Shown in pieces: positions 47,044 through 59,653 of a stretch of 64,000 nucleotides of DNA (position 1 is its first letter; each line of letters begins with the position of its first letter). This stretch comes from Flavobacteria bacterium MS024-2A. GTDB lineage: Bacteria > Bacteroidota > Bacteroidia > Flavobacteriales > Flavobacteriaceae. The position numbers and the translations under genes were made by a program. The stretch is from positions 103,326 through 167,325 of the forward strand of contig CAJJBB010000001.1 in assembly GCA_905182305.1 (NCBI GenBank). The letters run 5' to 3'. Under the pieces are notes generated by a model. The model had not been told where the DNA came from and ran no database searches. It saw nothing but the letters and a program-made list of their open reading frames with translations.

Positions 47044-47107
47044 ACTTACAAAAGATGATATGCCTGTTGTTTAAAAGAAAACGCCACTAAAGTTAATTAG
47101 TCACGTT
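47044..47107 (+). repeat. Module-2 repeat, copy 1
   Basis: ACTTACAAAAGATGATATGCCTGTTGTTTAAAAGAAAACGCCACTAAAGTTAATTAGTCACGTT. Confidence 0.85.
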
Positions 47108-47167
47108 GGTGTTTAAAATAGAATTGATATGAAAAGAAAATATTCTTAATGCAATTGGTTATAAATT

Positions 47168-47920
47168 TTAAAGTGCACTAAGGGTATAAACCTTTTTGTT
47201 GGCTAAATCTTCTCCTAATGAAAGTGTAAATTTCTCAAATGCAGGATCTGTCATCATTTCTCCTAATTTTGACATATCTACATCATATAAATAAACAGAA
47301 ACTTTGTTCGGATCTTTTACATCTCTATGGACAAGTGTTCTAGAATCATCACAAAACTGTTCTCTATTCTTATTATCTTTTATAAAGCCTTTATACCATG
47401 TGCCATAACCTTTGGTTAATGGAATTATAGCAACAACATCTACCAAAGAGTTTTGGTCTAAATCAGCGGCATTATACCATTCACTTTGGTGATAAATTTT
47501 GCCTTCGTCATTAAAGAATAATACAGCATAATAATCCATTAATACTGGTTTTTTTGTGACAGAATTTAACGATTCCCAAGTTCCATAAACTCTTACATCT
47601 CCATTGGGTTTTTGATTGTCATCTAAGCCAGCAAAATAAAGTTGTTTAGTGAAATTAATTTCTTTGAATCCAGCATTAAAACCTTTCATGGTATTGTGCC
47701 AAGTATTAATGTCAAGCGAGTCAACTCCAGTTGGTGGGGGTGACCACGTAAAGTCATCGGTTACATAGCTTTTCATTTCATCAAGTTTTTCATCAGAAAA
47801 TGCTTGGAAATATTCCTTAGATGTTTCTACGTTTTTCTCAAAATTGATCATCTCAGCTGAGTTTGAATCACAATTAATGAACAAAAAAGAACAGAACAAA
47901 ATAGTTATAATTTTTTTCAT
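47168..47920 (-). CDS. Secreted protein with NTF2-like domain
   Basis: Lipobox FINCDSN; YVTDDFTWSPPPTGVDSL...NGDVRVYGTWESLNSVTKKPVLMDYYAVLFFNDEGKIYHQSEW, related to 44162-44665. Confidence 0.65.
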   Translation of the reverse strand: MKKIITILFCSFLFINCDSNSAEMINFEKNVETSKEYFQAFSDEKLDEMKSYVTDDFTWSPPPTGVDSLDINTWHNTMKGFNAGFKEINFTKQLYFAGLDDNQKPNGDVRVYGTWESLNSVTKKPVLMDYYAVLFFNDEGKIYHQSEWYNAADLDQNSLVDVVAIIPLTKGYGTWYKGFIKDNKNREQFCDDSRTLVHRDVKDPNKVSVYLYDVDMSKLGEMMTDPAFEKFTLSLGEDLANKKVYTLSAL

Positions 47921-48270
47921 TTTAAAAAAGATTTAATATATGAATACAATATACAAAACTGTTTTTAAAACTGGAAGAAAAGCATTTGAACAAAATTTGA
48001 TTTCAAAACAAGAAATTGAAAGCCTTATTTTATTATGTATGCCTCACATTTTAGTATTTTAGTAAAACTATTTAAGTTTAAATTTTTTAAGAGTATAAAA
48101 AAGGAAGTTAAAAAATCTGATTTATAATGCGATTTACTTCATAGGACTTACTTTAATTTACACCATTAAAAAACTATATTATAAAAGAAAAAGAGATTAA
48201 AAACCACGATATTTATAAGAGTATTCAGCCATGGGTATTTTTTCCTTCAGCTGCCTTAATACTCATTTTT

Positions 48271-49710
48271 GTGCTGTTTACGCTTATTTATCAAGAGTCC
48301 GTAAGTGTGTTTTTCGAATCGGTACAAGCTTTTATAGCAGCAAAATTTGGATGGCTTTATGTTGTTGGTGTTAATGTTATTCTCATCTTTTGTATATACC
48401 TAGCCTTTAGTCGTTTTAAAAATATTAGGTTGGGTGGACCTGATTGCAAACCAGAGTTTAGTACTTGGGCTTGGATAAGTATGTTGTTTAATGCTGGTAT
48501 AGGTTTGGTGTTGATGTTTTACAGTGTTGCCGAACCAATATTACATTTCTCTAATCCTCCATACGGAGAAGCAGGGACTATTGATGCTGCACAAAATGCT
48601 TTAAATCTTTCTTATTTGCATTGGGGACTGCACGGTTGGGCTATTTATGCCTTAATGGGTTTGTCAATCGCATTCTTTTGCTATAATAAAGGACTTCCTT
48701 TGGGTATTCGTTGGGTATTGTATCCTTTGCTCGGCGATCGATTAAAAGGTCCTATTGGTCATTTTATAGATACTATAGCTGTTGTTGCTACGATGTTTGG
48801 CTTAGCAACTACACTTGGTCTAGGTATTCAGCATATTAACTCAGGGATGCATCACCTATTTGGTATAGTGGAAAACACAAATGTTCAAGTAATTTTGATT
48901 GCTATAATAACCATTTTTGCTACTATTTCTGTCGTTTCAGGATTACATAAAGGCGTTCAAATACTCAGTAAAATAGCTTCAATAATGGCTGTACTCCTAA
49001 TGATATTTATGTTAGTTGTTGGTCCTACTTTATTTATTCTTGGCTCTACAATTCAAAGTACAGGTTATTATTTACAAAACATAATAAGCACAGGTACTTG
49101 GATGGAAATTTATAAAGGAACAACATGGATGGGTAGTTGGACTATTTTTTACTGGGGATGGTGGTTTGCTTGGGCTCCTTTTGTAAGCTTATTTATTGCC
49201 CGAATTTCTAAAGGAAGAACCATAAAAGAGTTGCTCATAGGTGTAGTACTTGCCCCTTCGGCGGTAAGTGTTTTATGGATTTCTATTTTCGGAAGTACTG
49301 CATTCCACATAGAACTTTTTGGTGAAGGCGGTATTACAGCTGCTGTAAACGAAAATATTACTACGGCTTTGTTCAGCTTGTTAGAACATTTCCCTTTATC
49401 CTATTTTAGTATTCTATTTGTGGTTATTGCCGGAATAATATTCTTTGTAACCTCTTCCGATAGCGGTTCACTAGTTATAGATTTTATAACCAGTGGAGGT
49501 AGAGAAAAAGCAGCTGTATGGTTGCGTATTTTTTGGGCATTAGCCGAAGGGCTCGTTGCTGCTACTCTTGTATATGGAGGTGGACTCATAGCTTTGCAAA
49601 CAGGTTCGCTTGTTACGGGCTTACCTGTCTGTATTCTTATGTTAGTTTTGTGCTATTCCATTCTAAAAGCACTCCGAAAATACCAAGCTGATTCCGAAAT
49701 TAAGCCTTGA
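48271..49710 (+). CDS. BCCT family (choline/carnitine/betaine) transporter; N-terminus extends upstream
   Basis: PEFSTWAWISMLFNAGIGLVLMFYSVAEPILHF; WTIFYWGWWFAWAPFVSLFIARISKGRTI. In-frame ...NHDIYKSIQPWVFFPSAALILIFVLFT lies upstream of the GTG at 48271. Confidence 0.92.
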   Translation: MLFTLIYQESVSVFFESVQAFIAAKFGWLYVVGVNVILIFCIYLAFSRFKNIRLGGPDCKPEFSTWAWISMLFNAGIGLVLMFYSVAEPILHFSNPPYGEAGTIDAAQNALNLSYLHWGLHGWAIYALMGLSIAFFCYNKGLPLGIRWVLYPLLGDRLKGPIGHFIDTIAVVATMFGLATTLGLGIQHINSGMHHLFGIVENTNVQVILIAIITIFATISVVSGLHKGVQILSKIASIMAVLLMIFMLVVGPTLFILGSTIQSTGYYLQNIISTGTWMEIYKGTTWMGSWTIFYWGWWFAWAPFVSLFIARISKGRTIKELLIGVVLAPSAVSVLWISIFGSTAFHIELFGEGGITAAVNENITTALFSLLEHFPLSYFSILFVVIAGIIFFVTSSDSGSLVIDFITSGGREKAAVWLRIFWALAEGLVAATLVYGGGLIALQTGSLVTGLPVCILMLVLCYSILKALRKYQADSEIKP

Positions 49711-49713
49711 TTT

Positions 49714-51354
49714 TTATAAACTCCCTTTCTTTTTAAAAAAAGGACGCTGCTCTGGTTTTAAAGGAGTGTTCCCTAGAATTAAGTCGGCGGCCTTTTCTGC
49801 TACCATCATAACTGGCGAATAAATGTTTCCATTGGTAACATAAGGAAATACCGAAGCATCAACAATTCTAAGGTTGTTAATTCCGTGTACCTTTAAGTTT
49901 TCATCTGTTACAGCCATGCTATCTAAACCCATTTTACAAGTTGAACTTGGATGGTAAGCGCTTTCGCCTTCTTTAGCAATAAAATCTAAAATCTCTTCAT
50001 CAGTTTGTATATGAGCTCCGGGAGATAATTCTTTCCCCATTAATTCACTCATCGAATCAGTCTCAATAATTTTTCTTGATAATCGTACTGCTTCACACCA
50101 CTCTTTTCGTTCGTTTTCAGTAGAAAGATAGTTGAATAAAATACTAGGATACTCCAATGGATCCGCAGATTTTATTTTTACTCTTCCTCTAACATCAGTT
50201 CCCATAGGCCCAACATGTAGTTGAAAACCATGACCTTCGCTAGGAGCAGTTCCATCGTATCTAATTGCTAATGGTAAAAAATGGAATTGTAGATTAGGAT
50301 ATTTTACAGTGTCATTACTTCTGATGAAACCACCTGCTTCAAAGTGATTACTTGCACCGATTCCTTTTTTTCTAAACAACCAATCGAATCCAATTTTAGG
50401 GGCTCTCCAAGGACTCAAAGCTGAAAATAAACTAACTGGTTTTTTACAAGCCCATTGCACATATACTTCTAAGTGGTCTTGTAAATTCTCGCCAACTCCT
50501 GGTAAATCCTTTACTACAGGTATCCCTAAACTCTTTAAATGTTCTGCATTTCCTATTCCCGAAACCTGTAATAATTGAGGCGTGTTAATAGCTCCACCGC
50601 AACAAATGATTTCTTTTCCGTAAACTTTATATATCTTTCTACCCTTTTTGTATTCAACACCAACAGCTGTATTCCCATCAAAAAGAATACGCATTACCAT
50701 AGCTTGTGTTACCACATTAAGGTTTTTACGATGTTTTATGGGGTGTATATATGCACGAGCAGCATTCAATCTTCTAGAATTATGGATAGTCTGGTCGAAC
50801 TTACCAAATCCTTCTTGCTGATGTCCGTTAACATCATTGGTTAAAGGATACCCAGCTTCTTGAACAGAATTAAAAAAAGCATCAAAAAGTGGATTGTCAC
50901 ATTTAGGAGTGGTTAATTTTAAATTCCCTTTATCCCCTCTGTAGTCATCTCCACCAATAAGTCTATTTTCAACTTTTTTGAAATAAGGTAAGCAGTGTGC
51001 ATAATCCCAAGAATCTAGTCCATCGTCATTTGCCCATTTATCAAAATCCATCGCATTACCACGAATCCATATCATACCATTTATAGAACTACAACCACCC
51101 AAAACTTTCCCTCTAGGCTGAGCTATTTCTCGGTTATACATAAAGGGTTCTGGATCTGATGTATAGCCCCAGTTATAATTAGTTCCGGTAAGTAAATAAG
51201 TCAATGCTGCGGGCATGTGAATTCTAAAGTCCCAGGTATAATCTGGTCTCCCTGCTTCTAGCACTAATACCTTATTCGAAGAATCTTCACTTAAACGATT
51301 TGTAAGTACCGAGCCTGCGGAGCCTCCACCTATTACAATATAGTCCTGTGTCAT
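49714..51354 (-). CDS. GMC family oxidoreductase (choline dehydrogenase-like)
   Basis: DYIVIGGGSAGSVLTNRLSEDSSNKVLVLEAG; PRGKVLGGCSSINGMIWIRG. Confidence 0.92.
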   Translation of the reverse strand: MTQDYIVIGGGSAGSVLTNRLSEDSSNKVLVLEAGRPDYTWDFRIHMPAALTYLLTGTNYNWGYTSDPEPFMYNREIAQPRGKVLGGCSSINGMIWIRGNAMDFDKWANDDGLDSWDYAHCLPYFKKVENRLIGGDDYRGDKGNLKLTTPKCDNPLFDAFFNSVQEAGYPLTNDVNGHQQEGFGKFDQTIHNSRRLNAARAYIHPIKHRKNLNVVTQAMVMRILFDGNTAVGVEYKKGRKIYKVYGKEIICCGGAINTPQLLQVSGIGNAEHLKSLGIPVVKDLPGVGENLQDHLEVYVQWACKKPVSLFSALSPWRAPKIGFDWLFRKKGIGASNHFEAGGFIRSNDTVKYPNLQFHFLPLAIRYDGTAPSEGHGFQLHVGPMGTDVRGRVKIKSADPLEYPSILFNYLSTENERKEWCEAVRLSRKIIETDSMSELMGKELSPGAHIQTDEEILDFIAKEGESAYHPSSTCKMGLDSMAVTDENLKVHGINNLRIVDASVFPYVTNGNIYSPVMMVAEKAADLILGNTPLKPEQRPFFKKKGSL

Positions 51355-51732
51355 GGGATGAGTTTTTTTATTACCACAATTTACTGAATTATCAAGACTA
51401 CATCTACTAGTTGAATAAAATAGGCAGTAATTATATGAAGAAGATAATAATCTAAATCCTTAATCTATTCAAGATGCGTTTTTATGGATATTATCTGATC
51501 AAATTTAATAGTAATGTGATTTAACTAATGGTTGGCTATTAGGAAGTAAATAAAGTCTAATGGATTATAACATCATATATTCTACAATAATTTATTAAAT
51601 TCAATATAATTAGTACTTTGCAAGGTATTTATACACCAATATGTACACTGCTATGTCAATTATTATACAATTAAAGTAAAGTAAGTATTTGTTATTGACT
51701 GTTAATATGTACAATAGAACACCGTGTTTCTT

Positions 51733-51790
51733 CCAGAACTTACTGATGATGATATGCCTGTGGAAAAAAAGAAAAACACCACATTAAAAA
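51733..51790 (+). repeat. Module-2 repeat, copy 2 (diverged right half)
   Basis: CCAGAACTTACTGATGATGATATGCCTGTGGAAAAAAAGAAAAACACCACATTAAAAA. Confidence 0.75.
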
Positions 51791-51823
51791 TTTCGTATGG
51801 TTTCTAAACTAGAATAAAAATTT

Positions 51824-51964
51824 TTATGTAAATCCCCCACTATTATCATTAGGATTTACCTTATTAAGGTCAACCCCTGTTCGCTCATAATATTCTTTTC
51901 GGAATTTTAAATTCCTATCTCTTCTTTTCTTAAAACATTTAAGTAAATTTTTTATCCATTTCAT
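51824..51964 (-). CDS. Small hypothetical protein, 46 aa (absent from ORF track)
   Basis: MKWIKNLLKCFKKRRDRNLKFRKEYYERTGVDLNKVNPNDNSGGFT*; A-rich upstream leader. Confidence 0.5.
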   Translation of the reverse strand: MKWIKNLLKCFKKRRDRNLKFRKEYYERTGVDLNKVNPNDNSGGFT

Positions 51965-52051
51965 AATTTATGATTTAAAATAAAACACCAACTATAACAG
52001 CAATTAAAAATACTATATAGGACAAAACAAGCTGTTTTTGTTTTCAAAATA

Positions 52052-52240
52052 TCACAATGACAATAGGTAATTTATAATAGCAAATGGATAGAAACAAACT
52101 GTTAAAAAAATTGCAATAATAACGACTCCCTTTGCTAAATCTTTATCAGTAATATTATTTATCCATAATATTGTGGGTTTAATACCTTTTATGAGTATAA
52201 AAAACCCAAAAAATGCTAAAAAATAAGCTAATAACTCCAT
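52052..52240 (-). CDS. Small two-TM membrane protein
   Basis: MELLAYFLAFFGFFILIKGIKPTILWINNITDKDLAKGVVIIAIFLTVCFYPFAIINYLLSL. Confidence 0.6.
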   Translation of the reverse strand: MELLAYFLAFFGFFILIKGIKPTILWINNITDKDLAKGVVIIAIFLTVCFYPFAIINYLLSL

Positions 52241-52255
52241 TACAGCTAATATAAC

Positions 52256-52330
52256 AAATCCCAGAACTTACTGAAGATGATATGCCGATGATTCAAAAGA
52301 AAACGCCACTAAAGCTAATTAGTGACGTTT
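52256..52330 (+). repeat. Module-2 repeat, copy 3
   Basis: AAATCCCAGAACTTACTGAAGATGATATGCCGATGATTCAAAAGAAAACGCCACTAAAGCTAATTAGTGACGTTTTT. Confidence 0.9.
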
Positions 52331-52353: not shown

Positions 52354-52836
52354 TTAATTGTCTTCAGATCTTGATCCTATTTGAGATGTTCCACTTCCAC
52401 TTGATATTGGAGAATAATGAGCTGTTTTTATAACCCATTTACCATTTTCTTTTATATAAGTTTCTGATACTCTTGTCATATAATGAGAGACAGCAGGACT
52501 CCCTTTTGGTTTCATACTACCTTCGCTATAAAACATAGCTATTGCAGCTTTTCCTTGAACAAGAGATACTACTTTGATATGTTTAGGTTGTAAGCTAACG
52601 TAATCCCATTCATTTTTTCTGTTGTTGGGATTTTGGTCATAAATCATTAGCCCCCCTGTAGAATTAAATGCATAGTGACCATTGTCTGACATAAGTCTAA
52701 CATCAATGTTGCCCTTATTGTTTATTTCCCAATTACTTTGAATTAATTTTGTAATCTCTGTCTCATCTTTAGAATTATTTTGGGCAATAAGATTGGAAGT
52801 AATAAATAGAAGTAATAAGATTCCAATTTTTTTCAT
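52354..52836 (-). CDS. Secreted NTF2-like/DUF4440 protein
   Basis: Signal peptide; IQSNWEINNKGNIDVRLMSDNGHYAF...YMTRVSETYIKENGKWVIKTAHYSPI. Confidence 0.7.
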   Translation of the reverse strand: MKKIGILLLLFITSNLIAQNNSKDETEITKLIQSNWEINNKGNIDVRLMSDNGHYAFNSTGGLMIYDQNPNNRKNEWDYVSLQPKHIKVVSLVQGKAAIAMFYSEGSMKPKGSPAVSHYMTRVSETYIKENGKWVIKTAHYSPISSGSGTSQIGSRSEDN

Positions 52837-52874: not shown

Positions 52875-52914
52875 AAATCCCAGAACTTACTGAAGACGAT
52901 ATGTCTGTGGTTTA
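52875..52914 (+). repeat. Module-2 repeat, copy 4 (truncated after GTGGTTTAA)
   Basis: AAATCCCAGAACTTACTGAAGACGATATGTCTGTGGTTTAA. Confidence 0.88.
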
Positions 52915-52921
52915 ATTTTTC

Positions 52922-53740
52922 TTAATTTTTTTTTGATCTTAATAGAGCAAGAAATTTTTTTCCATATTTCGATTTTTTTACTTTTGGAGAAAGCTTTAAT
53001 GCAACAGAGTCTAGTAATGAAATATTTGCATCACTTATTTTTGTATATGCTAAATAAGGTGCTATTTCGTAATTAGAATTTGAAATTGCAAAATTAGCAG
53101 TATATAAATAGCTTAGTAAAAGAGTCCTTTTCAGTTGATTTTGAAAAGAATCCATTTTTATTATATTATCATTTTCTTCAGCATATTTCTTTTTAATTTT
53201 TAATTGCTGAATTTTTAATTTAAATTGATTTTCAAGTTTTTGGTATTCAATCATTAATTCTCTATTCTTTTTGCCTTTTATGGTATAACTTCTTTTTTTA
53301 TTTAAAGAATTATTTTCCAAGCCAAGTTGAGTATTAATTACAATTGCAGATATAGTTAGTTGATCAGTTCTGATTTCAACTTTTTCAATCTTTTGAGTGA
53401 GCTCTCTGATGGAAATGAAATTTTTAAAGAGATGCTTTTCAGTCAATTCATTATCATTAATAAAAACTCTTAATGGACCTTCACTTTGAAATGAATGTAA
53501 TTTTCCTGTTTTATAATCTTCCAAAGGAATTATAAAATTAAATTCTCTCCAAAAAGCAGATCTAAACAACTTTTTGATGAATGCATCTCTTTCTCTGAAT
53601 GAATAGATATTATCATTCAAATAAATTTTTGGGATAGCGACAGCGGAATTAACCACCTCGTCTAGATCAATACTTGTCCCTTGTTGTCCAAAAGCAAAGG
53701 AAAGAAAAAATAAAAAGCTAGAAAAAATAAAATTTTTCAA
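52922..53740 (-). CDS. Secreted hypothetical protein
   Basis: Signal peptide ...FLFFLSFAFGQQ; probable TTG start at 53740 aligned with other MKK starts. Confidence 0.55.
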   Translation of the reverse strand: MKNFIFSSFLFFLSFAFGQQGTSIDLDEVVNSAVAIPKIYLNDNIYSFRERDAFIKKLFRSAFWREFNFIIPLEDYKTGKLHSFQSEGPLRVFINDNELTEKHLFKNFISIRELTQKIEKVEIRTDQLTISAIVINTQLGLENNSLNKKRSYTIKGKKNRELMIEYQKLENQFKLKIQQLKIKKKYAEENDNIIKMDSFQNQLKRTLLLSYLYTANFAISNSNYEIAPYLAYTKISDANISLLDSVALKLSPKVKKSKYGKKFLALLRSKKN

Positions 53741-53772
53741 AATCAATATGTTTATGGTTATTCAAACATCAT

Positions 53773-53843
53773 AAATCCCAGAACTTACTGAAGATGATAT
53801 GCCTGTGGTTTAAAAGAAAACGACATTAAAGTTAATTAGTGAA
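53773..53843 (+). repeat. Module-2 repeat, copy 5
   Basis: AAATCCCAGAACTTACTGAAGATGATATGCCTGTGGTTTAAAAGAAAACGACATTAAAGTTAATTAGTGA. Confidence 0.9.
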
Positions 53844-53898: not shown

Positions 53899-54300
53899 TT
53901 AATTATTAAAAGGTATTACTTTAAGTTCATTTGAACCGAAAAACATATCTCCAATTAGTGAAACTGTTTCTTTTGTTATTTCTTCCTCTGAAGTATTTTT
54001 TTTTAATTCGAATTCAGTTAAATCCATCGAATACAGTTTATTCTCTTTTTGATTAATATGAATTGCCGTATAGAAGTGGTATCGTAGTATTTTTTCAAGG
54101 GTTATTTTAGTTCCAGGATAATAAGTTTGAAACCCCTCTAAACTTTTTAATGTAGTTTTTAATACTCGAAAAGACTTTTGAAATCCTAGTTCATTTTTAA
54201 GGCGAAGAGCCTTGTAATGATTAATTGAATCCTGAGAGTGCACTTCAGCTAAAAATATTGTAAAGATAAATGTTATAAAAGTGCGTAAGTTAAATTTCAT
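53899..54300 (-). CDS. Secreted hypothetical protein
   Basis: Signal peptide MKFNLRTFITFIFTIFLAEVHSQ; 133 aa. Confidence 0.55.
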   Translation of the reverse strand: MKFNLRTFITFIFTIFLAEVHSQDSINHYKALRLKNELGFQKSFRVLKTTLKSLEGFQTYYPGTKITLEKILRYHFYTAIHINQKENKLYSMDLTEFELKKNTSEEEITKETVSLIGDMFFGSNELKVIPFNN

Positions 54301-54380
54301 CTGTCAAATATATAGAGTATTAGTAATATACTAAGCTATTACACCTGTTAGGATAGATACTTTCAAAAATTATTTTAGTT

Positions 54381-54914
54381 TTAAAGCATTTTTTTTAATC
54401 TAAGTTTTTTTATCTCCTTTTTTTTTAACAAAATGATATTATCATCTTTCAAAGAATAAAATTCATTTTTAATTTTAAATTCTGGATTTGTATTTTCTGA
54501 AAACCCATCTGATTTTTTTGAGGGATAAAATTTAGCAATTGGTTTTAATAAATATATAAAATCATTCCTTTTATCTAATATTCTAAACCAACTATTACTA
54601 TAGGTAATCCAAGATTCCTTGTTATCTAAAAGTAGAATTTCGTTTTTAGGAAAAGCGAAAAGATTAGGTCCAACCTGTGAGCGCATAAAATCATCTAATG
54701 CGTTATACTTGACCTTAATTTCTTTTCCGTTAACCATTGTTGGTATGAATTCATCGTGATAAAATTTTGAACCAATAATATTTAACGTCCAGCTATTATC
54801 ACGTTTTTTAGTTTCTATATTTATTTGTTCTACATCTCCATAGTTTCTAACCTGTTGCGTTTGTTGGCTATGAATTAAAAATGGAAAAAGCAGAAAAGTA
54901 ATTACACTTCTCAT
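54381..54914 (-). CDS. Secreted hypothetical protein
   Basis: Signal peptide MRSVITFLLFPFLIHSQ; 177 aa. Confidence 0.55.
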   Translation of the reverse strand: MRSVITFLLFPFLIHSQQTQQVRNYGDVEQINIETKKRDNSWTLNIIGSKFYHDEFIPTMVNGKEIKVKYNALDDFMRSQVGPNLFAFPKNEILLLDNKESWITYSNSWFRILDKRNDFIYLLKPIAKFYPSKKSDGFSENTNPEFKIKNEFYSLKDDNIILLKKKEIKKLRLKKML

Positions 54915-54966: not shown

Positions 54967-55044
54967 CCGTATTTTTCTTCTTGAACTTACTGATGATGAT
55001 ATGCCTGTGGTTTAATAGAAAATGCCAATAAGTTGATTAGCGGT
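54967..55044 (+). repeat. Module-2 repeat, copy 6 (subfamily with ACCGTATTTTTCTTC left flank, shared with copy 2)
   Basis: ACCGTATTTTTCTTCTTGAACTTACTGATGATGATATGCCTGTGGTTTAATAGAAAATGCCAATAAGTTGATTAGCGG. Confidence 0.82.
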
Positions 55045-55288: not shown

Positions 55289-55459
55289 ATGGAAAAGTTA
55301 CTAATTATTCTTTATTTAAACCTTGGGTTTTATGCCATAGCAAGGACTAATTATTTCATTAGCAAAAGAGATAAAAATTGGGGTAAATGGATTCATAGAG
55401 TTTTACATCTTATTAATATTGTTGTTTACTTCAATATTTTATATGAATTAATTATATGA
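55289..55459 (+). CDS. 56-aa small membrane protein (absent from ORF track)
   Basis: MEKLLIILYLNLGFYAIARTNYFISKRDKNWGKWIHRVLHLINIVVYFNILYELII*. Confidence 0.45.
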   Translation: MEKLLIILYLNLGFYAIARTNYFISKRDKNWGKWIHRVLHLINIVVYFNILYELII

Positions 55460-55508
55460 GAATACAACCCTGTGATGTTTGCAGCTATTCTTCCCATATA
55501 TTTACATT

Positions 55509-55676
55509 ATGTTAGTTAAGGTTAAATATTTAGGATTATCTGTCAGCATTTTTGCTTGTCTATTTAAACTTATGTCTTGGCAAGGCGCTGATATACTATT
55601 GATTATCGGTTTATCTTTGTTGGGCATTTATTTTTTACTTAAAGTTTTTAAATCACTCTTTTTAAGGAAGGAATAA
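55509..55676 (+). CDS. Small GldL-TM-like membrane protein
   Basis: YLGLSVSIFACLFKLMSWQGADILLIIGLSLLGIYFLLKVFKSL resembles the GldL-related two-TM pattern; ATG at 55509. Confidence 0.5.
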   Translation: MLVKVKYLGLSVSIFACLFKLMSWQGADILLIIGLSLLGIYFLLKVFKSLFLRKE

Positions 55677-55678
55677 AA

Positions 55679-55705
55679 ACCTGAAGATGATATGCCTGTG
55701 GTTTA
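55679..55705 (+). repeat. Module-2 repeat, copy 7 (core fragment, truncated after GTGGTTTA)
   Basis: ACCTGAAGATGATATGCCTGTGGTTTA. Confidence 0.8.
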
Positions 55706-55820: not shown

Positions 55821-56324
55821 ATGCCAAATAAATATAGAATTATTGTTGAATTAACAAGTGTAGTTGCAATAATATTTTCACTTGTATTTCTTGCATTAGA
55901 AGTAAAACAAAGTAATCAGCTTGCTAAAGCAGAAATTAGACAAGCTTTAAATGTTACTGATATGGAAGTTTATAAGGTTCAAATGGAAGAAGATATAATC
56001 GCAAAAGCATTATATAAAATAAATAAAAATATACCCATTGATGATTATGAAGAATATCAGCTTAATGAATTCCAAAGGTTTAATTTTAGAGATTTTGACA
56101 ATTCTTTTTATCAATACAGAATTGGATTATTTGATGAAAATGTATGGTTTGCATACAGAAGAATAATTAAATCCTTATTAACGGAAAATTATATTATGCT
56201 AATGTGGGGAAACAGTAATCAATCATTTAGTATTGAATTTCAAGACGAGGTAAATAATATATTAAAAGAAATAAAAGATGATGTTGCTCTTGGTTTAAAA
56301 GAAAACGTCACTAAAGTTAATTAG
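55821..56324 (+). CDS. Hypothetical membrane protein whose C-terminus is encoded by a module-2 repeat
   Basis: N-terminal TM ELTSVVAIIFSLVFLALEVKQSNQ; C-terminus KDDVALGLKENVTKVN* read from repeat copy 8. Confidence 0.6.
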   Translation: MPNKYRIIVELTSVVAIIFSLVFLALEVKQSNQLAKAEIRQALNVTDMEVYKVQMEEDIIAKALYKINKNIPIDDYEEYQLNEFQRFNFRDFDNSFYQYRIGLFDENVWFAYRRIIKSLLTENYIMLMWGNSNQSFSIEFQDEVNNILKEIKDDVALGLKENVTKVN

Positions 56325-56454: not shown

Positions 56455-56667
56455 TCACATAAACAAAGGTAAATCTTCACTTACTTCATTAGTAGCTTGT
56501 TTCATTCTTGGTAAAGTGTATTGTAAGACTATTTGAAGCATCTTAATACGCTGGTTAGCGTCTAACTCATTTACACCTAAAGAAGTTTTTAAATCGTCTA
56601 TAAGTAGTTGTAACTTTTCTTTTACTTCTAATGTTATTTTATTTGGTACTCCTGCTGTTCTTACCAT
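56455..56667 (-). CDS. 70-aa hypothetical protein, apparently intact source of module 1
   Basis: MVRTAGVPNKITLEVKEKLQLLIDDLKTSLGVNELDANQRIKMLQIVLQYTLPRMKQATNEVSEDLPLFM*; N-terminal GxPNK motif reminiscent of DUF5681/small-terminase-like proteins. Confidence 0.6.
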   Translation of the reverse strand: MVRTAGVPNKITLEVKEKLQLLIDDLKTSLGVNELDANQRIKMLQIVLQYTLPRMKQATNEVSEDLPLFM

Positions 56668-56697
56668 TTTTCCTATATTTAATTTAAATTATTCTTA

Positions 56698-57027
56698 ATG
56701 AAACATCTATTACTATTCTTTGGTCTTATCCTATTTTCTTGTGGGGATAGCACATCAAAATTTGACTTACAGAAAAAGGAAATGATAGCAAACGAGTCCG
56801 CAAGATGGTTTACTATGGCTGAACCTAAAGACTTCGTCTTTAATGTAGTTAACGATTCCACTTTTACGATGTCTTCTAAATTTGTTCATCCTATCCTCGC
56901 TAAAGAAGTAAGGTTTACCTACACATATTCCTATACTTCTTCCCTTGACAGTTTAAAAAAAAACGAACTCTCAAAACAAGAACTACTTGTTGAAGGCACG
57001 TTAAACAAGTATGTAGACAGAGAATAA
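56698..57027 (+). CDS. Lipoprotein, hypothetical
   Basis: MKHLLLFFGLILFSCGDS lipobox; 109 aa. Confidence 0.55.
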   Translation: MKHLLLFFGLILFSCGDSTSKFDLQKKEMIANESARWFTMAEPKDFVFNVVNDSTFTMSSKFVHPILAKEVRFTYTYSYTSSLDSLKKNELSKQELLVEGTLNKYVDRE

Positions 57028-57105
57028 AAATACTTACTTTATTTTTTAGAGAACGTCATTATTCTAACAGTAACTTATAGTTAGTTCTGATTAGCTTACG
57101 AGAAT

Positions 57106-57180
57106 TAATCCCAGAACTTACTGAAGATGATGTGCCTGGGGTTTAAAAGAAAACGCCACTAAAGTTAATTAGTGACGTTA
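57106..57180 (+). repeat. Module-2 repeat, copy 9
   Basis: TAATCCCAGAACTTACTGAAGATGATGTGCCTGGGGTTTAAAAGAAAACGCCACTAAAGTTAATTAGTGACGTTA. Confidence 0.92.
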
Positions 57181-57211
57181 GTATTTATAAGATTCTTTGT
57201 GTTTTAGAATT

Positions 57212-57883
57212 CTAATTAAAAACGTGAATATTATTTGTCAAGTAGCTTTTAACTAATTCTACTTTTCCTCTTTCAGCAATAAAATTCTGAAAAGCCTTTG
57301 TTTTATTAATTGCTCTTTCAGTTAAAATTATATCGTTAAGGTTAGAACCGCTCAACCAAGTATTGTGAGTTCCTCCTTGTCCTCCCATATCAATTGATTC
57401 AAGTGCTACAATTCGATCATCCAAAATATTATCAATTGCTTTAATGAATTTATCATACGCTTTTGCAAACTTAGCAGGTTCGTGAACAATCATTTCCCAG
57501 TTTTTATGAGCTTTATTCTTTTTACCATCACCATCTCTCCATCGTAAATTTGTCATTACCATAGATCCAGTTCCATCATTGATGTTTTTTTGAATTTTCC
57601 CAATGTAGGCATCCCATTCAACATCTGATTTTTCTTCTTTATAACCCCAATTTGCAGGATCACCTACCAGGAGAACCCTGTGTGTCACATCATATCCTAA
57701 ATAATTTACTCCCTGAAGAACTGCAGCTCCTGATTTTCTTTCTGCATCATTCCACTCAGCAAAAAGTTCTGCAACCTCTTCTGCTCTTCCCATTTTAACA
57801 TCAAGATTAATAACTCTAATACTTGTTTGAGCAAAAGAGACTATTGAGACAAGTAAAGTTGTAATTGTAATAAATTTTTTCAT
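57212..57883 (-). CDS. Secreted hypothetical protein
   Basis: Signal peptide MKKFITITTLLVSIVSFAQ; start moved from 57913 because MSIINHKSIK is translated from the shared leader. Confidence 0.65.
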   Translation of the reverse strand: MKKFITITTLLVSIVSFAQTSIRVINLDVKMGRAEEVAELFAEWNDAERKSGAAVLQGVNYLGYDVTHRVLLVGDPANWGYKEEKSDVEWDAYIGKIQKNINDGTGSMVMTNLRWRDGDGKKNKAHKNWEMIVHEPAKFAKAYDKFIKAIDNILDDRIVALESIDMGGQGGTHNTWLSGSNLNDIILTERAINKTKAFQNFIAERGKVELVKSYLTNNIHVFN

Positions 57884-57920
57884 TTTAATTGATTTATGAT
57901 TAATAATACTCAAACATAAA
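57884..57920 (-). promoter_or_regulatory. Shared promoter/leader block (TATGTTTGAGTATTATTAATCATAAATCAATTAAAATG)
   Basis: TAnnTTTG plus conserved leader. Confidence 0.65.
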
Positions 57921-57938
57921 AAAAAATTAAAAAATCAC

Positions 57939-57979
57939 AAATCCCAGAACTTACTGAAGTGGATATGTATGTGGTTTAG
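57939..57979 (+). repeat. Module-2 repeat, copy 10 (truncated after GTGGTTTAG)
   Basis: AAATCCCAGAACTTACTGAAGTGGATATGTATGTGGTTTAG. Confidence 0.85.
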
Positions 57980-57981
57980 TT

Positions 57982-58332
57982 TTATTCTTTTTTAAACCAA
58001 AGCATTATTCTGTTATTATTTGAAAAAGTCAAATTTGAAAAACCAAAATTATTTCCCCGGTTGTTATTACTTAATGGAATGTTTCCGTTAATGTCAAGTT
58101 CTATTCCAGATGTTACTTTTTCCAGGGTAAAACCATTATTTTGATATTCATTTATGAGATTGACAATAGAAGGGTTTTTAATTTTTTTTCTATTTATTTT
58201 TTCTCCCCCATTATCAATCATTACAAATAATTCTTTAGAGTTTTGATTTACAATATCAACAATAACCCATTCTTGGGAATGTACTTTTGAAATAAAGACA
58301 AAAAAGGAAAAGACAAATAAAATTATTTTCAT
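57982..58332 (-). CDS. Secreted hypothetical protein
   Basis: Signal peptide MKIILFVFSFFVFISKVHSQ; stop lies about 3 bp from repeat copy 10. Confidence 0.55.
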   Translation of the reverse strand: MKIILFVFSFFVFISKVHSQEWVIVDIVNQNSKELFVMIDNGGEKINRKKIKNPSIVNLINEYQNNGFTLEKVTSGIELDINGNIPLSNNNRGNNFGFSNLTFSNNNRIMLWFKKE

Positions 58333-58392
58333 AGTATAATCTGTTATATCCCAAATATAAGAAACTCTACAATATCTCTAATCCTTGTTTTG

Positions 58393-58518
58393 TCCCAGAA
58401 CTTAATGAACAAACAAAGGCAAGTCCTCACTTACTTCATTAGTAGCTTGTTTCATTCTTGGTATAGTGTATTGTAGAACTTACTGAAGATGATATGCCTG
58501 TGGTTTAAAAGAAAACTT
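58393..58518 (+). repeat. Composite repeat, copy 11: module-2 left end / inverted module 1 / module 2
   Basis: TCCCAGAACTTAATGAA-CAAACAAAGGCAAGTCCTCACTTACTTCATTAGTAGCTTGTTTCATTCTTGGTATAGTGTATTGTA-GAACTTACTGAAGATGATATGCCTGTGGTTTAAAAGAAAAC. Confidence 0.9.
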
Positions 58519-58577
58519 CAATAAACAGAAAACGCTAACTTTGATAAAACCTTAAATCAATTTATTACGTTTAAATT

Positions 58578-58769
58578 ATGAATTATAAAATTTTAATGAC
58601 CGTTACTGGTGTTCTAATTATAGCAAACCTCCTGATTGGATTCTTCACTAATTTTTGGGATGAAACTAATTATCCTGATTATATCAACTCCGTTTTAGGT
58701 GTTTTTTTAATTCTGTTTGCCACACAAGTTTTTTCCAAAGAGAATAAAAAAGAAAGCAAAGAAGATTGA
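58578..58769 (+). CDS. Small membrane protein (63 aa)
   Basis: MNYKILMTVTGVLIIANLLIGFFTNFWDETNYPDYINSVLGVFLILFATQVFSKENKKESKED; followed directly by a module-2 terminator remnant. Confidence 0.55.
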   Translation: MNYKILMTVTGVLIIANLLIGFFTNFWDETNYPDYINSVLGVFLILFATQVFSKENKKESKED

Positions 58770-58774
58770 AGAAA

Positions 58775-58895
58775 TAGAAAACGACCCTAAAGTTAATTAG
58801 TAACACTAATCACACAAACAATGGCAAATCTTCACTTACTTCTATTCTAGGTAAAGTGTATTGAAGAACTTAATGAAGATATGCCTGTGGTTTAG
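58775..58895 (+). repeat. Composite repeat, copy 12: module-2 terminator / inverted module 1 (15-nt in-frame deletion) / module-2 core
   Basis: AGAAAACGACCCTAAAGTTAATTAGTAAC..., ACAAACAATGGCAAATCTTCACTTACTTCTATTCTAGGTAAAGTGTATTG, AGAACTTAATGAAGATATGCCTGTGGTTTAG. Confidence 0.88.
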
Positions 58896-59031
58896 GTTTT
58901 ATATTTAAAAAATTACCGAGTTCTCAATTCACACTTACAAAACTTCTTTAAAGTTTCATTCACAAAATTTTAGAGTAGTTTTTCATTGTATTGGTTAAAG
59001 ATGTTTAAATCGTAAACTCGGGAGAGTTATC

Positions 59032-59460
59032 TTATTTTATTTGCTCCGGTCTTTTAAACCAGATACTTGCTATAAACATAAAAGCAATTGTAGCCCAAAT
59101 AATAATTGATGGAAAATCTGGGGCTAAAGAAGCGGGACCCATTTCTACAGTATAACCAAATTGGTTAATAATTGCTTTTGCACCTGATGAAATTTCTGCT
59201 CCGGTTTGCTCTAATTCAGAAAGTTGATATGAAATACTTTTTTGAGTTTGGACCATATAAGAAGATACTTGTAATCCAAAAAATATTATGCAAGTGCAAA
59301 ATAATGTCAATACGATTTTAGAATAAACAGGCATATTAAGCTCTCTTGACCTTCTAATAAGATAAAAAGCTAATACTGTCATTACAATTACACATAAAAG
59401 GTAAATTGCATTATTTATAAGATTAAGATTAGATATTTGATAAATTTGAAATTCATTCAT
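59032..59460 (-). CDS. Hypothetical membrane protein
   Basis: Three hydrophobic segments; start moved from 59490 because MNIINHKSIK is translated from the shared leader. Confidence 0.6.
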   Translation of the reverse strand: MNEFQIYQISNLNLINNAIYLLCVIVMTVLAFYLIRRSRELNMPVYSKIVLTLFCTCIIFFGLQVSSYMVQTQKSISYQLSELEQTGAEISSGAKAIINQFGYTVEMGPASLAPDFPSIIIWATIAFMFIASIWFKRPEQIK

Positions 59461-59497
59461 TTTAATTGATTTATGGTTAATAATATTCAAACATAAA
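59461..59497 (-). promoter_or_regulatory. Shared promoter/leader block (TATGTTTGAATATTATTAACCATAAATCAATTAAAATG)
   Basis: Nearly identical to 57884-57920. Confidence 0.65.
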
Positions 59498-59516
59498 CCT
59501 ATTATTAAAGAATCAC

Positions 59517-59653
59517 AAATCCCAGAACCTACTGAATAAACAAAGGCAAGTCATCACTTACTTCATTAGTACCTTGTTTCATTCTTGGTAAAGTGTATTG
59601 TAAGCCAGAACTTACTGAAGATGATATGCCTGTGGTTTAAAAGAAAACACCCC
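59517..59653 (+). repeat. Composite repeat, copy 13: module-2 left end / inverted module 1 / module 2; right end of array
   Basis: AAATCCCAGAACCTACTGAA-TAAACAAAGGCAAGTCATCACTTACTTCATTAGTACCTTGTTTCATTCTTGGTAAAGTGTATTGTAAG-CCAGAACTTACTGAAGATGATATGCCTGTGGTTTAAAAGAAAACACC. Confidence 0.92.

Follow-up and report, generated by a model that had tools for sequence, protein, structure and literature searches.

Probable mobile single-gene cassettes in marine Flavobacteriales share their site with the 3' coding end of a tyrosine recombinase gene

For the capture of single genes, the textbook example is the integron. In streamlined marine bacteria, tycheposons and other tRNA-anchored islands that restore the end of the gene they target carry a tyrosine recombinase beside tRNA genes, and 3'-end remnants mark their past insertions. 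Integration by archaeal suicidal integrases splits the integrase gene into inactive halves, a behaviour described as exclusively archaeal (PMC8371274). Here we analyse a stretch of 64,000 nucleotides (hereafter the window) from Flavobacteria bacterium MS024-2A (assembly GCA_905182305.1, contig CAJJBB010000001.1, positions 103,326 to 167,325), whose 1.86-Mb source genome, of the order Flavobacteriales, is 86.5% complete. Among named sequences, its best matches are to uncultured marine Flavobacteriaceae, with MS024-2A and Candidatus Arcticimaribacter MAGs among them. Judging from sequence comparison, the window probably holds an array of mobile single-gene cassettes, moved by a system that resembles integrons without being homologous to them and that has its site within the 3' coding end of a recombinase gene, which we call INT.

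Two repeated modules provided the starting point. One is the 3' end of a small gene, S70, and is considered below; the other, module 2, encodes the tail ELTEDDMPVV followed by a stop and is present in twelve window copies, all on the forward strand, between 47044 and 59639. A 24-mer taken from module 2, with up to three mismatches allowed, matches the window nine times, against none in shuffled sequences. A search for frames ending in this tail led to an intact tyrosine recombinase of 348 aa in relative L060, terminating in ...LTYLRGLEVPELNEDDMPMV or ...SSINVSLTYLRGLEVPELNEDDMPMV and a stop. Module 2 is therefore the 3' end of the recombinase gene INT, and we refer to its copies as attachment (att) sites. 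The att core measures about 32 bp (GAACTTACTGAA, GATGATAT, GCCTGTGGTTTA) and the whole site about 36 bp. At least 58 sites occur in the source genome, in several clusters, and 34 of the 38 species of the genus have them. The sites also read as gene ends: exactly ten codons lead to the stop in 136 of 181, TAA, TAG or TGA forms the last triplet in 153 of 171, and indels within sites come in multiples of three in 10 of 13 cases. Sites that are in frame and stop-ended are what would be expected if every site is, or lately was, the end of an INT gene.

The relationship between gene and site is laid out in several relatives. In L136, INT comes after tRNA-Ala, and the final 36 nt of the gene constitute the first site; seven further sites come next, with opposite-strand genes between them. 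In L138, INT precedes five further sites, an S70 relative that faces INT, and then other genes and tRNA-Asn. Both loci combine a site next to the recombinase gene with a tandem cassette array. Either tRNA-His or tRNA-Ala lies directly upstream of INT in L137 and L141, where the contigs end soon after the site, and the INT frame runs through the site to its stop in L060, L136, L138 and L141. The M1-peptidase/Xaa-Pro-peptidase pair that flanks the window array is kept, without sites, in four relatives (L184, L189, L191, L193).

INT carries a Phage_integrase domain (PF00589, 42 bits against a cut-off of 27.1), the one domain matched at E of 1 or below; Phage_integr_3 (PF16795) was not found in it. 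Five catalytic residues, R208, K236, R299, H322 and Y331, are invariant among seven INTs, and the box II His is replaced by Tyr (YSFRH), residue roles being assigned by motif. The closest solved relatives are Xer-type recombinases; XerC and XerD are present in the source genome as separate genes, distinct from INT, and a XerC gene adjoining array C5, considered as an agent, was judged a housekeeping copy, beside HPF and tRNAs. A single-sequence structure prediction of INT (pLDDT 36) was of no use. Six species of the genus have a complete or nearly complete INT, and others a split or partial one; outside the genus it extends to at least four further families of the order, for the most part with genomes of 1.3-2.1 Mb, and is rare elsewhere. 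A viral or plasmid origin of INT or S70 was rejected: S70 had no match in phage records, INT and the site none in viral contigs, and INT none in plasmids. Between species, INT genes are mosaic, with about 45-50% nucleotide identity upstream and 89-97% over the last 50-70 codons; the breakpoints differ by pair, near residue 278 or 302, and third-position identity in the shared 3' part is 67-92%. On these identities, the mosaicism exceeds what protein constraint alone explains. In L060, a tRNA-like sequence with an extra arm of about 25-30 nt, not called by ARAGORN, lies just upstream of INT.

From site to site, we distinguished 125 cassettes with a median length of 901 bp. Each begins with a right half-site, mostly followed by a hairpin; next come a single gene directed towards INT, a leader containing promoter-like sequence, and a left half-site. 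The main gene is antisense to the site, and to INT, in 108 of 122 cassettes. Leaders adjoining the site have in common a block ending in AACCATAAATCAATTAAA-ATG, and TANNTTTG, which we take to be the Bacteroidetes -7 box, is enriched in cassette leaders (17 occurrences against 5.9 expected). Most of the window cassette proteins have no Pfam family. Where the same cassette is present in different species, the shared segment spans site to site, and 15 of 16 near-full-length homologous pairs share neither assessable flank. Whichever the direction, identity between shared cassettes switches inside the site at about +16 to +23, within GATATGCC. Hybrid sites of two sequence types exist, the third site of the window array among them (Table 1), and are consistent with crossover in GATATGCC.

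We are thus able to propose a mechanism for cassette movement, centred on a dedicated tyrosine recombinase with its attachment site inside its own gene's 3' coding end. A circular cassette would recombine with the site at the INT 3' end, or with any array site, INT exchanging strands in GATATGCC. Insertion behind INT would swap its last five or so codons and stop for cassette-borne ones; since the crossover falls inside the last INT codons, each cassette would bear a substitute INT C-terminus and stop codon. At the far end of the array, S70 would form the closure, its 3' end facing INT. Cassette groups with a copy of the S70 3' end (A) would enter at S70 codon 47 and renew its end, and the old end would be pushed into the array, giving rise to fragments with the same first codon that are kept in frame. 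The anatomy of the arrays, the match of the site to the INT 3' end, the reshuffling of entire cassettes, the zone of crossover and the mosaic INT genes are all seen directly in the sequences; from them we infer the catalysis by INT, the circular intermediates and this route of S70 displacement. The last of these, with S70 closing the array, its end renewed and old ends left behind, is the weakest step, and we regard it as evenly balanced between right and wrong.

The preliminary description of the window had reported a 70-aa minus-strand open reading frame, our S70, with three copies of its 3' end, and all four are present. One detail was wrong: the tails LFVH and LFIQ are as reported, whereas the second copy ends in LFV (GTG TGA) and not LFVCD. 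All three copies are cut at the LQYT codon (..GTATTGTA on the forward strand, QYTxPR). A 27-mer from the S70 repeat, with at most three mismatches, has three window matches, namely the gene and the two undeleted copies only, and none in 100 shuffles. The likeness that had been noted between the module tails is real at the DNA level (GAAGTAAGTGAAGA...TTGCCTTTGTTTA versus GAACTTACTGAAGATGATATGCCTGTGGTTTA) and does not extend to kinship, module 2 not being a relative of S70. Similarly, the suggestion that both modules are 3' ends acting as target or agent of recombination essentially survives, without the single small gene family to which they had tentatively been assigned, module 2 being the recombinase 3' end.

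Instead of standing as isolated housekeeping genes, homologues of S70 and 3'-end fragments are found, across many species of the genus, amid the same repeats; a housekeeping role for S70 was rejected, with none of 21 genomes of other genera matched in the relatives search. An att site adjoins the LQYT cut in 52 of the 82 S70 3' ends, and in 22 the sequence runs on into S70. Many of these ends are flanked on the other side by an att left half, with left halves on both sides in 34, and 41 of 60 displaced fragments are still in frame to the stop. S70 lies opposite INT, 3' end facing the array, in L138 and L045; in the latter, S70 stands at one array end, a site and tRNA-Ala stand at the opposite one, and cassettes fill the space between. 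The intact window S70 lies inside the array, so that this copy does not itself display the order that L045 and L138 do. Simple end-displacement was rejected for the window copy: with the fragments on its 5' side, the intact gene here does not stand at the array head, and it is on L045 and L138 that the model rests. The three window fragments are best read as displaced S70 3' ends.

Table 1. Features of the window array; positions are those of the window.
Feature	Position	Strand	Remarks
S70	56455..56667	-	intact 70-aa gene of array-edge family, here within 1.4-kb module
A1	58408..58475	-	displaced S70 3' end (QYTIPRMKQATNEVSEDLPLFVH, stop), cut end joined to att site
A2	58813..58864	-	displaced S70 3' end, 15-nt in-frame deletion, ends LFV, stop
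A3	59536..59602	-	displaced S70 3' end, ends LFIQ, stop; att left half on other side
att site	47044..47073	+	first of array
att site	51732..51763	+	
att site	52261..52293	+	hybrid of two sequence types (..GAAGATGATATGCC then GATGATTTA)
att site	52880..52914	+	
att site	53778..53812	+	
att site	54980..55014	+	
att site	55681..55705	+	right part only
att site	57111..57145	+	
att site	57944..57978	+	
att site	58474..58507	+	joined to A1
att site	58865..58894	+	joined to A2, 3-nt deletion
att site	59605..59639	+	joined to A3, last of array
att left half	58395..58409	+	CCAGAACTTAATGAA, precedes A1; partial site-model match
att left half	59522..59536	+	CCAGAACCTACTGAA, precedes A3
Cassette gene	52052..52240	-	62 aa; cassette 51733-52293 also in L062 (90% identical, other neighbours)
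Cassette gene	52354..52836	-	160 aa, secreted-looking, no Pfam
Cassette gene	52922..53746	-	274 aa, no Pfam
Two cassette genes	53899..54914	-	133 and 177 aa, no Pfam
Two small cassette ORFs (open reading frames)	55289..55676	+	cassette has 495 nt (96%) in common with L048 cassette
Gene in S70-bearing module	55821..56324	+	167 aa, no Pfam
Lipoprotein-like gene	56698..57027	+	109 aa, divergent from S70, no Pfam
Cassette gene	57212..57883	-	223 aa, no Pfam
Cassette gene	57982..58332	-	116 aa, no Pfam
Cassette gene	58578..58769	+	63 aa, membrane-like
Cassette gene	59032..59460	-	142 aa, no Pfam

The nature of the S70 protein was addressed by profile and structure. A profile search with the 70-aa protein, as proposed in the preliminary description, gave no match in Pfam or PHROG; a longer relative reached only E=0.066 to a terminase profile, and a reading of S70 as a terminase small subunit or DUF5681 protein was not supported, the 70-aa protein matching no named family. 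Structure prediction yielded a helical hairpin of low confidence (pLDDT 65), a model too weak for a fold search, and the DNA binding that had been envisaged was not supported. Elsewhere, a divergent 329-aa tyrosine recombinase overlaps tail-to-tail with a distant S70 relative (L041:1162-2436; G000:C3, about 9 kb) among nucleotide-sugar genes, an arrangement that would fit S70-like genes being targets of integration. Other S70 relatives lie near integrative elements with a recombinase of about 420-430 aa (L098:1983-8200, L111:8243-14962), the L098 element additionally holding a helix-turn-helix gene, an ATPase and a primase-like gene. At L099:4061-4738, an unrelated DinB-like protein carries the S70 N-terminus (MARPKGSPNKITADVKDNL) as an in-frame fusion. 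The C-termini of INT (EDDMPVV), S70 (SEDLPLF) and a replication-like protein of L075 (VDSLPF) resemble the acidic C-terminal tip of single-stranded DNA-binding protein (SSB), and might be SSB-mimic peptides.

The first module of the window (47073-51732) encodes a BCCT transporter together with a choline dehydrogenase-like GMC oxidoreductase, a possible cargo import; relatives of the oxidoreductase elsewhere in the genus are only about 40% identical. An element of about 10 kb with terS-like, primase-like and resolvase genes (L075:7017-16500) lies in an array beside a truncated S70 fragment; it carries tRNA-Gly and tRNA-Thr genes as second copies. The window cassette gene at 59032-59460 has a homologue in another species, where it adjoins the same M1 peptidase gene without att sites (L186:11553-11978).

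Several observations weigh against a cassette system run by INT. Intact INT was not found in the source genome, which retains a decayed trace only (L077, around 18885); the window array, having no INT, would thus be a remnant or be served in trans. The synonymous excess on the sites is moderate (0.34 versus about 0.22) and the two site arms are weakly inverted. The junction between A and att is variable (TGTA followed by GAAC, AGCCAGAAC or ATCCCAGAAC), and in arrays L094, L101 and L146 no A composite was detected. In L177, which belongs to another GTDB family (f2), the sites retain 31-40 codons of INT, suggesting that some units may once have carried it. INT mosaicism reaches 140-210 nt upstream of the crossover, from which it follows that homologous recombination also acts. 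Lastly, recombination itself is read from a static footprint of shuffling; no recombination, circle or activity was observed.

The L177 sites would suit a different history, in which small INT-bearing integrative elements accreted in tandem, each at the INT 3' end of the previous unit, with INT later lost and no INT-less cassette ever moving in trans. INT pieces at array sites in several genomes, and the location of INT at tRNA genes, like that of integrative elements, point the same way. Within the genus, however, most sites have a gene leader or A upstream of the core in place of INT sequence, cassettes without INT recur across species with different neighbours, and a single INT accompanies many cassettes in one array (L136), so we judge accretion unlikely. 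Ordinary homologous recombination between dispersed INT and S70 3' ends, with no site-specific action, strikes us as less probable still. It would explain the homogenisation of INT 3' ends, which covers 140-210 nt and has variable breakpoints, and a single crossover within A can yield displaced A copies, but the identity switch is confined to an 8-bp zone of a site of about 36 bp that is short for RecA to act on and that heads a recombinase gene.

It is very improbable that the composite of A and att (about 107 bp) is itself the mobile entity, a transposing unit with imperfect inverted ends akin to a miniature inverted-repeat transposable element, and that the arrays are its chance accumulations. 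The A tail does resemble the tail of module 2 (B) in inverted orientation, and A often stands between two att left halves in the manner of a target duplication (the 34 of 82 copies above); nonetheless most sites lack A, the three arrays named above have none detected, and the segments shared between species are whole site-to-site cassettes rather than the 107-bp unit. Inverted repeats A and B as a single transposon were accordingly not favoured. A canonical integron cassette cluster with attC sites from which IntI is missing (CALIN) would look similar, with orphan genes, units of about 0.9 kb, one recurrent site per gene and arrays without integrase. This candidate failed on the integrase profile and on site folding, and we find it scarcely credible: INT scores 19.5 and 25.3 bits with TIGR02249 (integron integrase) against a cut-off of 265, and the sites are coding, fold no better than shuffles (z -0.4 to +0.9) and end in GGTTTA, lacking GTTRRRY ends. 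Moreover, the genes run antisense to INT, and promoter-like sequence is present in their leaders. No known RNA family was found in the repeats.

Returning to a cassette system headed by INT, we consider the chances somewhat better than even that marine Flavobacteriales harbour a second, independently evolved integron-type capture system in which the recombinase C-terminus lies in the exchanged DNA. Every cassette would then rewrite the last residues of the enzyme, after the catalytic Tyr; recombinase activity could be tuned or reset according to the cassette taken up, and the sites would stay in frame through selection for a functional enzyme. No description of such a system was found in the open-access papers searched, subscription papers lying outside the search, and this gene-capture system of marine Bacteroidetes is apparently undescribed so far. 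If the proposal is true, a non-homologous counterpart of integrons would explain the gain and shuffling of orphan genes in small marine genomes, many of the captured orphans having signal-like N-termini. A recombinase with its own gene end as site would also provide a testable link between capture and enzyme activity, and tools based on IntI and attC are expected to miss such arrays.

The arrays share with integrons (IntI, attI, attC) a tyrosine recombinase platform, tandem one-gene cassettes with one site each, orphan cargo and the existence of integrase-less arrays. They differ in that INT is not IntI and the site is an unfolded core within the INT 3' coding end, lacking the attC hallmarks of a single-strand-folded palindrome with RYYYAAC and GTTRRRY ends; in addition, the cassettes point to INT, their leaders have promoter-like sequence and INT adjoins tRNA genes. 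Compared with tRNA-anchored islands, the units are single genes with recombinase-tail sites, and it is a protein gene, S70, that would be renewed at the far end. As in the pdif (Xer) modules of Acinetobacter, the shuffled gene units lie between short double-stranded cores that are sites of a tyrosine recombinase (e.g. PMC12907356, PMC13141974), although those modules rely on host XerCD and on dif-like sites, both in plasmids and in chromosomes, whereas here a probably dedicated INT heads the arrays and its gene end is the site. Finally, like the archaeal suicidal integrases of SSV, pTN3 and pT26-2 (PMC8371274), the system has a site inside the integrase gene, linked site and protein sequences, and tRNA targets; unlike them, INT would not be split, only its last codons being exchanged and the frame restored by the incoming DNA.

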